Assembly (NCBI RefSeq): GCF_900215325.1
Contig: NZ_OCMS01000002.1
Coordinates: forward strand, 434,001-498,000
Direction: 5' to 3'
Length of the DNA: 64,000 bases
Source: Fibrobacter sp. UWB16
GTDB lineage: Bacteria > Fibrobacterota > Fibrobacteria > Fibrobacterales > Fibrobacteraceae
The notes under the pieces: model-generated
What the model saw: only the letters and a program-made list of their open reading frames with translations
Told to the model about the DNA's origin: nothing
Database searches by the model: none
Position numbers and translations under genes: made by a program
Shown: positions 15,297-19,127 of the stretch, piece after piece
How the letters are laid out: every line of letters starts with the position of its first letter
Numbering within the stretch: position 1 is the stretch's first letter

Positions 15297-16661
15297 TTAT
15301 CTCTTTTTCTTCTTGTTTTTGTCCTTGGGCGGGGTGTAGTTCGAACCGATGGTTCCGCCGTTGTTCTGGCGCTTGGCGAAATCGCCGACCTTCTTGAACA
15401 TTTCCTTCATGCTTTCGTACTGCTTGAGGACTGCGTTCACGCGGGCGGCATCCGTGCCGGAACCCTTTGCGATACGGGCCTTGCGGCTACCGTCAATAAT
15501 CTGCGGCTTCTTGCGTTCCTTCGGCGTCATGGAGCTGAGGACAGCTTCCACATAGACCAACTGCTTTTCGTCGATCTGGTCGAGCGGGAGCTTGTTGAGT
15601 CCCGGGATGAGGCTCAAAATATCCTTGATGCGGCCGAGCTTCTTGATCGTGCGGAGCTGCTTCAAGAAGTCGTTCAAGTCGAACGTGTTGTTGAGAATCT
15701 TTTTCTTGAGGTCCTTCGCGTCCTTTTCGTCGATGACCTGCTGAGCCTTTTCAACGAGGGAGACCACGTCGCCCATGCCGAGGATTCGGCTAGCCATGCG
15801 GTCCGGGTGGAAAAGGTCGATTTCGTTCAGCTTTTCGCCAACACCGATAAAGCATATAGGCACGCCCGTCATCTTCTTGATGCTGAGCGCTGCACCGCCG
15901 CGGGTGTCGCCATCCATCTTCGAGAGGCAGACGCCCGTGAAGTTCAGACGGTTCCAGAAAGTCTCGGCGACATTCACTGCTTCCTGACCGATCATGGCGT
16001 CAGCGACGAACAAAATTTCGTCCGGATGAACTGCGTCGCGTGCCTTTTCGAGTTCCTGCATCAACTCTTCGTCAATCTGCAAACGGCCTGCGGTATCGTA
16101 AATCACGAGGTCAAAACCGTTGTCCTTTGCGTACTGGTAGCCGTGCTTGATGATTTCGACCGGATTGCCCTGGCCTTCGTCATAAACCGGGACGCCGATG
16201 GACTTGCCGAGCACCTGCAACTGCTTGATAGCGGCCGGACGGTAAACGTCAGCGGCGACGAGGAGCGGTTTCCTCTTCTTCTTGCTGCGCATCCAGAGGG
16301 CAATCTTGCCTGCAAACGTCGTCTTGCCCGAACCCTGCAGACCGACCATCATGATGCCCACCGGGGAGGGGGCGGAAAGGTTGATTTCCTTAGTTTCTCC
16401 ACCCATGACGGCTACAAGCTCGTCGTGGATAATCTTCACAATCTGCTGACCCGGGGTCACGGAATTGAGCACTTCGGCGCCCATGGACTTTTCCTTGACA
16501 GACTTCACAAAGTCGCGGGTCACGTTGAAGTTCACGTCGGCAGCGAGGAACGCGCGACGCACCTCACGCAGCGATTCCGCCACATTTTCTTCGGTAAGTT
16601 TGCCCTGCCCACGCAGGTTCTTGAGGGTATTTTCTAGAGAATCAGTCAGCTGTGAAAACAT
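15297..16661 (-). CDS. ffh: Signal recognition particle protein Ffh
   Basis: This 454-residue GTPase binds signal sequences of nascent membrane proteins together with SRP RNA. The N-terminal four-helix domain, G domain (GLQGSGKTTFAGKIA near residue 108, DTAGRLQID, SKMDGDTRGGAAL) and methionine-bearing M domain (about 300-430) are complete, ending in a Lys-rich tail. The SRP RNA gene itself was not found in the window. A -10 box lies so close that the predicted leader is only a few nucleotides. Confidence 0.98.
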   Translation of the reverse strand: MFSQLTDSLENTLKNLRGQGKLTEENVAESLREVRRAFLAADVNFNVTRDFVKSVKEKSMGAEVLNSVTPGQQIVKIIHDELVAVMGGETKEINLSAPSPVGIMMVGLQGSGKTTFAGKIALWMRSKKKRKPLLVAADVYRPAAIKQLQVLGKSIGVPVYDEGQGNPVEIIKHGYQYAKDNGFDLVIYDTAGRLQIDEELMQELEKARDAVHPDEILFVADAMIGQEAVNVAETFWNRLNFTGVCLSKMDGDTRGGAALSIKKMTGVPICFIGVGEKLNEIDLFHPDRMASRILGMGDVVSLVEKAQQVIDEKDAKDLKKKILNNTFDLNDFLKQLRTIKKLGRIKDILSLIPGLNKLPLDQIDEKQLVYVEAVLSSMTPKERKKPQIIDGSRKARIAKGSGTDAARVNAVLKQYESMKEMFKKVGDFAKRQNNGGTIGSNYTPPKDKNKKKKR

Positions 16662-16717: not shown

Positions 16718-16940
16718 TGTGTGAAAAAGCTTGTAATGGTGTCATTCTGAGCGGAGCCAGTAAGGCGAAGTCGAAGAATCTATAAAATTTAGGAATGTTG
16801 GTGAAAATGCTTGTAATGACGTCATCCTGAACGCGAAGCGTGAAGGATCCAGTAAATTTTATATGGGGAGGGAGAAGTCTCTCCCTCGCTTCAGCCTTCG
16901 GCTTCCGCTACCTTTTCCGCCGCCCTGAGCTTGTCGAAGG
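16718..16940. repeat. Cluster of interspersed GTCAT repeats
   Basis: Two related units begin with a shared GTGAAAA(A/T)GCTTGTAATG leader at about 16722 and 16800. They continue as GTCATTCTGAGCGGAGCC...GAAGAATCT (16741-16781) and GTCATCCTGAACGCGAAGCG...GGATCCAGT (16821-16853). A CCCTGAGCTTGTCGAAGGG hairpin follows at about 16921-16939. No coding sequence is evident. These GTCATyCTGAGC...GAAGGATC elements occur in many bacterial genomes, and one recurs inverted at 58925. Confidence 0.6.
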
Positions 16941-17050
16941 GGAGCGGGCTTCAGACGCCAGCCCGCAACGCCTGGCTTGTCCTGCCCGCACGCCATCAAA
17001 ATCCTTTGAAAAATTCCCATTTTTTAGAAAAAATCACTCTTTTGTAAACT

Positions 17051-17086
17051 TTTTGTGCGTTTCGCTCTTTTTTATGTTATCTTTTT
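17051..17086 (+). promoter_or_regulatory. Possible promoter of a structured RNA
   Basis: TTGTGC near 17051 and TTATCT near 17075-17080 with an 18-bp spacer resemble the -35 and -10 used elsewhere here. It precedes a chain of hairpins with no convincing gene. Confidence 0.35.
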
Positions 17087-17102
17087 AACGAAATAGAGTT
17101 TT

Positions 17103-17345
17103 TACTCTTGTTCTCCAAACGAAATCTGCAAATTTCAAATAACCGAGAACAAGGTGAACGCTCACGCAGGCACGCCGTTTTTGCGGTGTGTTTCAGTTTG
17201 CTATGCCGACTATTGAGTCGGTCTTTGGCCGTATGGTCAAGGGCAACAGCCCTTTCGGGGCGTGGGTCGTTTGCGTTTATCGGTTATAGGCTTTGCAGAG
17301 CCTCGTTTGGATAAATGCAACGATCTGCGCCTTTTTTGTATTCTC
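17103..17345 (+). ncRNA. Candidate structured RNA (hairpin chain)
   Basis: Five to six stable hairpins follow one another: CTTGTTCTC/GAGAACAAG (17107-17115 with 17145-17153), CACGCCG/CGGTGTG (about 17170-17190), CCGACT/AGTCGG (about 17206-17221), GGCC/GGTC (about 17227), AAGGGC/GCCCTT (about 17240-17255) and AGGCTT/GAGCCT (about 17288-17303). I match it to no known class: it lacks the tRNA-like end of tmRNA, the conserved RNase P motifs and the SRP tetraloop region. An overlapping 68-codon frame (17108-17314) ends IGYRLCRASFG, vaguely like the C-terminus of formylglycine-enzyme-fold proteins, so a decayed gene end is the alternative. Confidence 0.35.
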
Positions 17346-17408
17346 TAAAAATGCGGATTATTGCCAAGAAGGGGAGAAACTCCTGTAATTTTAATTAAGG
17401 AGAAATTT

Positions 17409-17471
17409 ATGCCTAAATGTCCTCATTGTGGTGCTAATGTTGATGCTGAAGATCCTTTTATTTGGACCTGA
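17409..17471 (+). pseudogene. Zinc-ribbon gene cut by a stop codon
   Basis: A strong AAGGAG ribosome-binding site (17397-17402) and ATG 17409 start the 20-residue peptide MPKCPHCGANVDAEDPFIWT, then TGA. In the same frame after TGA come FYKCSK and a further open stretch to 17541. A zinc ribbon needs a second cysteine pair, and only one further cysteine follows, so this looks like the broken start of a longer zinc-ribbon protein. A genuine 20-residue peptide cannot be excluded. Confidence 0.5.
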
Positions 17472-17526: not shown

Positions 17527-17991
17527 ATGTCAAGAGAAAGAAGAGTTAACTATCAATGTAACTATTGCGGTAAGAGCGGAATAGGATATGTAGAAGAAGA
17601 ATATAGAAATAATCAATGGCAAGTTGTCAGTGAGACAATTCCCAATGGATGGAGTAGATATCGCTATAAAATGCTTGTTTGTCCTCAATGTGATGATAAT
17701 CCCAAAGTAAGAGCGGCTATTCGAAATAAAATAAAGTCAAAAGATTCTTCCCGCACAGGTTGCTTTCTTGCTCTTGCTTCATTTTCAATATTGATTCCTG
17801 GATTTTCTTTTTTGGCAAGTAAAGACTACATTGGGATTATATTTTGTTCGGCCATAGTGATAGGTAATATCTTTATTTTTAAAGCACTAGGAACTAAAAA
17901 AAGTGGATATGTTATTTCTGTTCTACTTTTAATAATTGAAGTATTCCTTTCTTTTGCTTTATTAATAGGCTCTATTGATGCTGGCAAATAA
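17527..17991 (+). CDS. Zinc-ribbon plus transmembrane hypothetical protein
   Basis: This 154-residue protein begins with a zinc-ribbon-like part (CNYCGKSG near residue 11, CPQCDDN near 52) followed by three hydrophobic segments (about 76-92, 96-114 and 121-150). I do not recognise the family. The gene is AT-rich compared with the ffh block and lies 55 nt after the broken zinc-ribbon frame, which may be a relative. ACAAGGAAAC upstream is a plausible ribosome-binding site. Confidence 0.65.
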   Translation: MSRERRVNYQCNYCGKSGIGYVEEEYRNNQWQVVSETIPNGWSRYRYKMLVCPQCDDNPKVRAAIRNKIKSKDSSRTGCFLALASFSILIPGFSFLASKDYIGIIFCSAIVIGNIFIFKALGTKKSGYVISVLLLIIEVFLSFALLIGSIDAGK

Positions 17992-18199
17992 TCAGATTCT
18001 TCGAATTATGTTGCAGCTTTAATAACGGAAAAGCGTAATGTATCCCCAATGGGTTAACAAGTAAAACATCCTCCTTATCTTTATTGCTTGAAGTAGAAAA
18101 CTATAAAAATTTTGAACAGTTAATAAAGTTATGGAGGAAGTTTATTTTTCCCCGATGGGTAAAAATACAAGAAAGAAAAATAGTCTAAGGAGTAATGAT

Positions 18200-18760
18200 A
18201 TGGTGAAGTTTTTTGCTTTAGTTTTATTTATGGAGGCCATGTCTTGGGCTGTTGTTGTTAAGCCTCCCTTTTCGAAGAAAGATATTCTCGTAAATATTCT
18301 ATCTCCTTCGAATACAAGTACTTCAAAGGTGTTAAGTACTATGCCGATTGTTATTGATGGACGATATATGTGCCCATATATTGGTTCCGTATATGGTCCC
18401 ATGGAAAAGGATTTTGTCTGTGCTGATGCGTATGTTTATCATTTGGTACGGGTTGCTGCAAATACAAAAAAATCCTTAGATTGTTATTATGATTACAATC
18501 TGCTTAGTGGTGATCATACGCTTTCCGTTCTGCAACAGAAGGAATGCCCAGATATTCTTGTTAGCTATGCAGGATACAAATTTTTAGCAGCTGTTTATTT
18601 TGATGAGATTGATGATTATCGATTGTATTTCTTTGATATGGATGTCCCGAAACAGGTTTTTCAGGGAGATTTGGATAATTTTCCCAAGGTACAATCTCAA
18701 ATTCGGTATAGACGAACGCATATGGGTCGTGAAAAAACTAAAAATGAGATCATATTTTAG
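18200..18760 (+). CDS. Secreted hypothetical protein
   Basis: This 186-residue protein has a signal peptide (MVKFFALVLFMEAMSWA) and no motif I recognise. Cysteines and aromatic residues are spread through the mature part, fitting an exported protein. The 18200 ATG has an AAGGAG ribosome-binding site at 18188-18193; the open frame from 18131 lacks one. AT-rich, like the adjacent orphan gene, so likely acquired. Confidence 0.6.
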   Translation: MVKFFALVLFMEAMSWAVVVKPPFSKKDILVNILSPSNTSTSKVLSTMPIVIDGRYMCPYIGSVYGPMEKDFVCADAYVYHLVRVAANTKKSLDCYYDYNLLSGDHTLSVLQQKECPDILVSYAGYKFLAAVYFDEIDDYRLYFFDMDVPKQVFQGDLDNFPKVQSQIRYRRTHMGREKTKNEIIF

Positions 18761-18819: not shown

Positions 18820-18902
18820 ATGGAATGCGCGGCCCCTTGCGCGCTCAATCTCGAAATAGTAAATTCTTATTTAGTTCAAATTTCAACAGCGAGGTAAAGA
18901 AA

Positions 18903-19127
18903 ATGACGGATGTGATGGCTGAACGCGAAAACGCTTTTGCCGAAGGCAAAGAAGAAGGTTTTGCCGAAGGCAGGGCGGAAGGCTTTGCTGAAGGGGCTTT
19001 TACCGAGCGTACAAAAGCGGATAAGGAAAAACGTCAAATGGCGAAAAGTCTCAAGGAACAGAATGTAGATGTTTCTATAATCGCTAAAACGACTGGTTTT
19101 TCTGAAGAAGAAATTCGCAGTTTATAG
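18903..19127 (+). pseudogene. 3' remnant of an Rpn-type PD-(D/E)XK nuclease gene
   Basis: Only the C-terminal part survives: a 74-residue frame from ATG 18903 with the repeats EGKEEGFAEGRAEGFAEG and the ending IIAKTTGFSEEEIRSL, typical of Rpn/YhgA-like nuclease tails. The catalytic domain is absent. The complete relative at 46707-47696 shows what is missing. A weak GAGGT element precedes the ATG, so a short peptide could still be made. Confidence 0.6.

Follow-up and report, generated by a model that had tools for sequence, protein, structure and literature searches.

What is the chain of stable hairpins that stands beside ffh in Fibrobacter sp. UWB16, and what does it do for the genes that follow it? 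The window, that is the whole stretch of 64,000 nucleotides that was analysed, carries ffh at 15297-16661 (- strand; TIGR00959, E 2.3e-178) as the fixed upstream neighbour of the locus, and the hairpins lie at 17051-17345. The folding energy of the + strand of this interval is -114.1 kcal/mol, where shuffled sequences average -76.4 (sd 4.58, z -8.23), a value that 0/200 shuffles equalled; the - strand folds less strongly (z -4.73, also 0/200 shuffles). The conserved body is a structured RNA of 248 nt on the + strand (17093-17340), which is slightly narrower than the interval of the preliminary description. It is a copy of the type referred to here as class A, of which 82 copies were aligned, and scores 292.8 bits with covariance model R1, which was built from 30 aligned copies with the window sequence itself among its seed. 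G-U pairs make up 25.5% of the paired cells in stem P2 and 22.8% in the terminator stem (82 copies). Since G-U pairs would become mismatches if the - strand were transcribed, their conservation points to an RNA on the + strand. With compensatory changes in the 82 aligned copies, we regard it as nearly certain that the window element is a real structured RNA.

Upstream of the body is a promoter-like stretch (17042-17092, +) with TTGTAAA at 17042-17048 and ATGTTAT at 17074-17080. TTGTAAA lies within 60 nt upstream of 46/92 copies, and ATGTTAT or a near variant is found upstream of 58/92. The plausible promoter that had been noticed at this place has motifs that recur before other copies; its function as a promoter is a reading of the sequence, by which transcription of the RNA would start upstream of hairpin 1. 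Between ffh and the RNA, REP-like palindromic repeats were seen by eye at 16738-16800 and 16815-16860 (GTCATTCTGAGCGGAGCC...GAAGTCGAAGAATC, GTCATCCTGAACGCGAAGCGTGAAGGATCC). Pieces resembling these repeats were also seen by eye inside the central hairpin of some variants of the RNA, e.g., in L173, L175, and L177.

The RNA was compared with known families. It had been judged by eye not to fit tmRNA, RNase P, 6S, or SRP RNA, and this was borne out by the covariance models of Rfam 15, those four included: 0 matches anywhere in the 64-kb window reached the gathering score. A tRNA/tmRNA search of the window found none either. Likewise, no family reached its gathering score on the RNA itself in 18 loci that cover class A as well as variant copies, and the sub-threshold Rfam matches near it had E values of 0.95-5.8. 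The sole Rfam match in these 18 loci is a DUF3800-XI RNA (RF02975, 60.1 bits) at L040:5393-5439 (-), which sits about 170 nt upstream of, outside, and on the opposite strand to the RNA at L040:5610-5858. At the sensitivity of that search, window positions 17040-17345 had no match in 50,697 phage records, and IMG/VR held no exact match to the core pattern of the RNA, a result that holds for that collection and sensitivity.

The preliminary description had left room for a decayed gene end, in which conservation would follow the codon positions of an overlapping frame. The sole open reading frame of at least 60 aa that overlaps the RNA body is a 68-aa frame at 17108-17314. Substitutions relative to the window, sorted by codon position of this frame, are 0.156, 0.191, and 0.248, so that third positions do change a little more, as the gene-end reading would have it; however, the frame is open in just 15/82 class A copies and length modulo 3 is kept in 34/82. 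Together with the compensatory changes in the alignment, this rules the decayed gene end out, and we would be very surprised to see it return.

The anatomy of the RNA was derived from the 82 class A copies, which are 245-256 nt long, have an own code score of at least 47, and were counted once where identical. L086, L096, and L030 (mismatched), L109 (5' side cut), L235, L268, L182, and L183 were left out of this set. The structure as a whole has 605 double-changed cells, where shuffles average 164.8 (sd 17.3; 0/500). RNAalifold on 30 copies returned a long-range fold of 70 pairs, 26 of them with compensatory changes. Covarying stems are thus present in the alignment with other Fibrobacter genomes that had been proposed as a check. 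The "at least five stems" described earlier are accounted for by hairpin 1, the central hairpins (three or four in number), and the last hairpin, which measures about 73 nt and carries a U run.

In hairpin 1 (17108-17153, +), an outer stem joins 17108-17115 to 17145-17152; an internal loop with segments a and c separates it from an inner stem, which is capped by apical loop b. The outer stem is 98.6% paired with changes on both sides in 2/8 pairs, and the inner stem is 86.6% paired with no double change. Hairpin 1 is followed by GAACGCTCACGC (17156-17167, +), a putative antiterminator, which forms the 5' strand of a central closing helix with 17260-17272 (99.4% paired, 12 pairs). Enclosed by this helix on the + strand are P2 (17168-17193; 99.3% paired, 6/10 pairs double-changed), P3 (17206-17221; 94.3% paired, 5/6 pairs double-changed), and the less strongly supported P4 (17225-17240; 69.5% paired) and P5 (17241-17252; 94.7% paired). 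These central hairpins (17168-17252) are replaced or missing in variant classes.

The last hairpin (17259-17337, +) resembles an intrinsic terminator, with GGCGTGGGTCG (17259-17269) pairing with CGATCTGCGCC (17321-17331) ahead of a U run (17332-17337). This lower, terminator stem is 99.3% paired, with the G-U share given above and no double change. The upper stem (17273-17281 with 17310-17318) is 99.6% paired. At the top (17282-17309, +), segments c' (17282-17287), b' (17294-17299), and a' (17305-17309) are arranged around an inner stem AGGC/GCCT, which is 77.1% paired and has no double change. Behind the terminator a leader (17338-17408, +) extends to the cargo, in which CTCCT (17380-17384) faces AGGAG (17398-17402) before the start codon, a pairing seen by eye. 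The consensus of 86 leaders has ACTCCA...ATGGAG at the place of the CTCCT/AGGAG of the window.

The most striking feature of the RNA is a three-part code by which hairpin 1 and the last hairpin of the same copy are complementary. Segment a (CAAAC, 17116-17120, +) pairs with a' (99.8% paired, 5/5 pairs double-changed), segment b (TCTGCA, 17125-17130, +) with b' (100% paired, 4/6 pairs double-changed and 2 invariant), and segment c (ATAACC, 17139-17144, +) with c' (96.9% paired, 6/6 pairs double-changed), so that 15/17 code pairs show double changes in the 82 copies. In 134 elements of at least 150 nt, neither aligned nor filtered by score, the 5' and 3' loops of one and the same copy form a duplex of -34.6 kcal/mol on average, vs -19.9 for crossed copies, and the own partner is the best in 109/134. 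A further set of 163 elements was obtained from 186 rows by a score of at least 47 and a length of at least 160 nt. The 23 rows dropped are 12 tandem second elements, 3 antisense-type, 3 mismatched copies, L109, L186, L277, L231:4731, and L227:2389. As the 163 elements were chosen by score, their own-score mean is selected, and the 134-element test is the clean one.

G-U pairs make up 0-2% of the code helices, compared with 13-25% in stem 1, the competing helix, P2, the upper stem, and the terminator stem, 7.8% in P3, and none in P5. Inverted repeats maintained at the DNA level or by template switching would explain this near absence as well as selection on the RNA would. In three of 86 class A copies (L086, L096, and L030) the 5' and 3' codes are mismatched, and in each of them the 5' code is known from another copy and the 3' code is not complementary to it. 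From their sequences these copies look like recombinants or assembly errors; unless they are assembly chimaeras, pairing is not kept at every moment.

The code is fixed neither by place nor by cargo, since four codes and four cargoes are found at the ffh locus. Here the codes are CAAAC-TCTGCA-TAACCG in this genome (G000), TAGTC-TCTGCA-AGAACG in G046, CAAAC-TCTGCA-AGAACG in G005, and ACCTT-TCTGCA-TTACCG in G008; ffh was assigned from sequence in the last three and by its family model in the window.

How far the RNA is spread was examined at several levels. Within the genus, blastn found matches in 78 of 80 genomes. R1 matches 90/167 Fibrobacterota genomes, comprising 79/80 of the genus, 10 in three other genera of the same family, and one weak match in another family (G081, E 3.7e-5); a weak blastn match in G113 (E 1.1e-4), likewise outside the family, was not repeated by the covariance model. 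Among 84,980 species genomes the core pattern was found in 51 stretches, 50 of them titled Fibrobacter, Fibrobacterales, or Fibrobacteraceae and the remaining one a single 3.7-kb contig titled Bacteroidales bacterium; F. intestinalis ATCC 43854 is one of the strains with the pattern. The genome of the window has one complete copy, that of the window, and a 5' remnant at C2:697182. In six deeply searched genomes, 8, 12, 12, 13, 16, and 17 coded elements were fetched with a passing score; the match numbers of the covariance searches, of these six as of the 167 genomes, include antisense matches on the last hairpin. An RNA class that is largely confined to one bacterial family and has no Rfam entry is represented by 8-17 coded elements in each of these six genomes.

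Outside class A, copies occur in which the central domain is a different one. Class D (about 170 nt) consists of the coded hairpins, the competing helix, and the terminator only. Class B is about 240 nt long and often has a second element 29-46 nt further on. In 12/12 tandem class B loci compared by eye, this second element contains a further hairpin 1 whose code is identical or similar to that of the first, so that the last hairpin of the first element is flanked by potential partners to either side. When scored, the second hairpin has its best match in its own neighbour in 6/12 of these loci, and the rest are confused with loci of similar code.

The RNA heads many interchangeable Fibrobacter gene sets, often of anti-virus genes, and its shorter variants often precede restriction-modification genes. 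In the window, the first cargo gene is the truncated remnant of a zinc-ribbon gene (17409-17471, +; 20 codons), for which a longer frame was seen by eye at the same place in L069. It is followed by a gene for a 154-aa protein (17527-17991, +), with a similar protein behind the RNA in L069, and a gene for a 209-aa protein (18131-18760, +), with a similar protein in L040, both likenesses again being seen by eye; neither protein has a Pfam or NCBIfam match. The variable stretch of the window is closed by a fragment of an Rpn-family recombination-promoting nuclease/putative transposase (18825-19127; TIGR01784 at 37.8 bits, which is under the curated cut-off), and in L034 and L036 longer frames of this type were seen by eye after the cargo. 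Elsewhere, class A cargo includes FISUMP proteins (TIGR02145 in 5/10 proteins scanned, the ten including one ffh and three from the window), a zinc-ribbon/TM2 protein (L064), and proteins without a family.

Class B and D cargo includes a type III methyltransferase, enzymes of the ISP and MmeI types, HsdM, C5 methylases, a methylase of the EcoRI type next to a GmrSD-like gene, and a helicase resembling DrmD; by eye, lipoproteins, one acyltransferase, and unknown proteins were seen there as well. Of the methyltransferase genes in the six genomes, 22/60 have an element on the same strand within 3 kb upstream of the matched domain, a share which may not hold elsewhere as these genomes were picked for many copies. 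By family, an upstream element was found for 6/16 (PF00145), 8/14 (PF01555), and 8/30 (PF02384). The 60 genes are a hand count from 67 rows (18, 15, and 34) in which pieces of one gene were merged. In these genomes the RNA thus stands ahead of over one third of the methyltransferase genes counted.

Attenuation is the best reading of this RNA, since its last hairpin is terminator-like and has its 5' arm in common with a conserved competing helix. GCGUGGGUCG serves both as the 5' arm of the terminator stem and as the 3' strand of the conserved helix with ACGCUCACGC. It pairs either with upstream ACGCUCACGC or with CGAUCUGCGCC, the latter making the terminator, and because GCGUGGGUCG is common to both helices the two exclude each other. 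In class A the competing helix is 99.4% paired over 12 pairs, of which 6 are invariant and 1 is double-changed, and some of its columns are common with the terminator stem; with almost no compensatory change, its conservation could have another cause, e.g., a protein site. For the 161/163 elements that were computable, the energy of the separate-hairpin fold minus that of the long-range fold is on average +4.9 kcal/mol (sd 5.6), and in 88/119 mid-length elements the two folds lie within 6 kcal/mol. As in known attenuators, a terminator-like hairpin with a GC-rich stem and a U run lies upstream of a gene. A frame of at least 90 aa starts within 120 nt behind the element in 110 of the 140 elements with at least 900 nt of downstream sequence, frames being counted mechanically with no gene caller. 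Bearing on the same point, class D keeps hairpin 1, the competing helix, and the last hairpin alone.

We give an even chance to the claim that the RNA is a cis-acting, self-coded transcription attenuator leader for the exchangeable accessory or defence genes behind it, and the RNA probably decides whether those genes are read. In the proposed mechanism, RNA polymerase would start upstream of hairpin 1. Pairing of a, b, and c with a', b', and c' would keep the GCUCACGC strand beside GCGUGGGUCG, the terminator arm would be occupied, and transcription would continue into the cargo. Without contact between hairpin 1 and the last hairpin, the terminator would form and the short RNA alone would be made. 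Which fold is ON we infer. Candidate triggers may include an address-matched RNA (such as the short RNA left by previous rounds), a protein, or the polymerase state in phage-infected cells, and the copy-specific code would keep each leader paired with itself.

Two further explanations take the code as a means of recognition beyond the leader. The RNA could be an independent small RNA, finished at its own terminator and acting in trans, with the code setting mutual recognition (dimers, or plasmid-like incompatibility) and the cargo merely co-inherited. The promoter-like stretch and the terminator-like hairpin do bracket the RNA, 459/489 code helices are 6-9 bp and thus short enough for a loop-loop contact of closed hairpins, and 128 distinct codes occur among the 163 elements. 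Moreover, the full code is common to 0/536 same-genome pairs, vs 17/12,324 between unrelated copies; this is as chance predicts, fewer than one identical pair being expected in 536. Avoidance, however, predicts lower compatibility within a genome, and cross-compatible pairs (score at least 50) make up 13/1072 same-genome ordered pairs vs 364/24,648 unrelated ones, with no clear difference. The idea of orthogonal codes that avoid each other within a genome thus found no support. The frame within 120 nt behind 110/140 elements and the possible hairpin over the ribosome-binding site in the leader consensus also suggest a leader rather than a trans-acting RNA, and we consider the trans-acting small RNA unlikely. 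Less credible again is a guide RNA of a recombinase or nuclease, of the bridge-RNA or TIGR type, whose code would name a DNA target. Such an RNA would account for two coded loops and a quick code turnover, but here one loop is the complement of the other, and by eye no gene was noticed that goes along with the copies as a rule, the cargo being variable. Nor are the code segments commoner in their own 3-kb flanks than those of other copies: for 151 elements, with the 12 tandem loci left out and elements masked, there are 69 matches vs 65.3 (sd 8.2) in permutations, 138/400 of which are as high. With the tandem loci included a weak excess appears (89 vs 71.3, sd 8.1), which vanished upon their exclusion and the masking of elements, and the code as a guide to DNA in these flanks was rejected; we consider the guide reading highly improbable.

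The element could also act as DNA. In this explanation its folded strand or its repeats would be a recombination site through which cargo is shuffled, either integron attC-like or a hotspot of homologous exchange, and the transcription signals would be secondary. It draws on the four different cargoes behind the RNA at the ffh locus (G000, G046, G005, and G008), on the Rpn-family fragment that ends the variable stretch of the window and the longer frames after the cargo in L034 and L036, on arrays of element, genes, element, and genes, and on code helices nearly without G-U as well as recombinant-looking copies. Yet the conserved G-U pairs elsewhere in the structure indicate a + strand RNA, the copies are scattered over many contigs rather than gathered at one integration site, and code segments are not enriched in the flanks by the permutation test above. 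Besides Rpn-family genes, no recombinase was noticed beside the elements in the loci inspected by eye. On these grounds a DNA-level cassette element appears improbable, and the attenuator leader is retained as the preferred reading.

Attenuators and kissing-loop codes are known kinds. In open-licence PMC full texts no report of this RNA was found; neither there nor in Rfam was there a leader family that has a private three-segment code per copy and is common to unrelated defence genes. Transcription attenuators and riboswitch-type leaders have two mutually exclusive helices, one of them terminator-like, ahead of a gene. The Fibrobacter RNA has the same arrangement, but its long-range pairing is copy-specific and re-coded, one family precedes many unrelated genes, and its central domain is not constant across classes. 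Plasmid copy-control RNAs (ColE1 RNAI/RNAII and pT181) use kissing loops, and that of pT181 works by attenuation. They resemble the Fibrobacter RNA in a loop-coded recognition in which letters change together on a constant scaffold; their partners, however, lie on opposite strands, whereas the Fibrobacter partners lie within one transcript and on chromosomal contigs. As in kissing-loop incompatibility, co-varying loop codes were found, but there was no sign of same-genome code avoidance. Integron gene cassettes carry exchangeable cargo, including restriction-modification genes, and a structured inverted-repeat attC element at the 3' side of the cargo. Exchangeable cargo with a structured inverted-repeat element is seen in Fibrobacter as well, and arrays exist. 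In contrast to attC, the Fibrobacter element is 5' of the frames taken as cargo, has promoter- and terminator-like sequences, and occupies scattered sites, and no integrase was noticed by eye.

The paranemic crossover motifs of RNA nanotechnology are designed (PMC10376919). On their pattern, two closed hairpins could be connected through helices of about half a turn each that are self and cross in turn (PMC10376919), and hairpin 1 and the last hairpin would join in this way. The cross helices and outer stems of the Fibrobacter RNA are supported by the alignment, but its inner self-helices, 86.6 and 77.1% paired, show no double changes, and much of the same data can be explained by a simple nested stem of long range. 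ROOL, GOLLD, and OLE RNAs are, like the Fibrobacter RNA, orphan structured bacterial RNAs, and "kissing loop" is a frequent term in PMC12286853. They differ in that they are reported as large RNAs that form homo-oligomers (PMC12286853); the Fibrobacter RNA has no Rfam match.

A wider joint reading was also formed, to which only a minor share of our belief attaches. It proposes genome-wide, RNA-headed interchangeable cassettes (FISUMP surface proteins, restriction-modification genes, and DISARM-like genes) with a private three-part code per leader. Hairpin 1 and the terminator hairpin would dock by a natural paranemic-type three-helix contact, docking would be ON, and the coded short RNA from terminated rounds would dock in trans and turn OFF its own cassette alone. 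If this is true, defence genes would be accompanied on their travels by a self-addressed RNA switch, thanks to which many of them could exist side by side, each controlled separately. For the control of newly acquired restriction and other defence genes in bacteria, an RNA leader common to unrelated defence genes would be a new answer. Moreover, the per-copy re-coding of a long-range RNA contact on a constant scaffold is a natural experiment on RNA-RNA recognition.

Further observations concern the surroundings of the elements. Upstream of class D elements, a CGTACCGAATGGTTCGGAGCGACCGG-like stretch was found in L225 (second), L226, L227, and L228, and it may be part of the class D unit. Behind class D, a gene set encoding proteins of about 224-237, 139, and 118-119 aa recurs at L226:6369-7498, L227:9974-11064, and L228:5336-6426. 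It adjoins restriction-modification genes, its first member has no Pfam match in L228, and by its sequence context it is a candidate accessory or defence system. Similar proteins of 805 and 802 aa are also encoded behind class D at L231:4978-7392 and L250:566-2971, the first having no Pfam match. Lastly, the leaders of L004, L007, L015, L069, L079, L071, L051, L073, and L106 contain a second conserved, hairpin-like stretch behind the terminator. By eye, its C-rich loop could pair with a downstream G-rich stretch (CCCGC...GCGGG; CCCUC...GAGGG in L069/L079), and this second stretch is possibly a separate element of the pseudoknot type.
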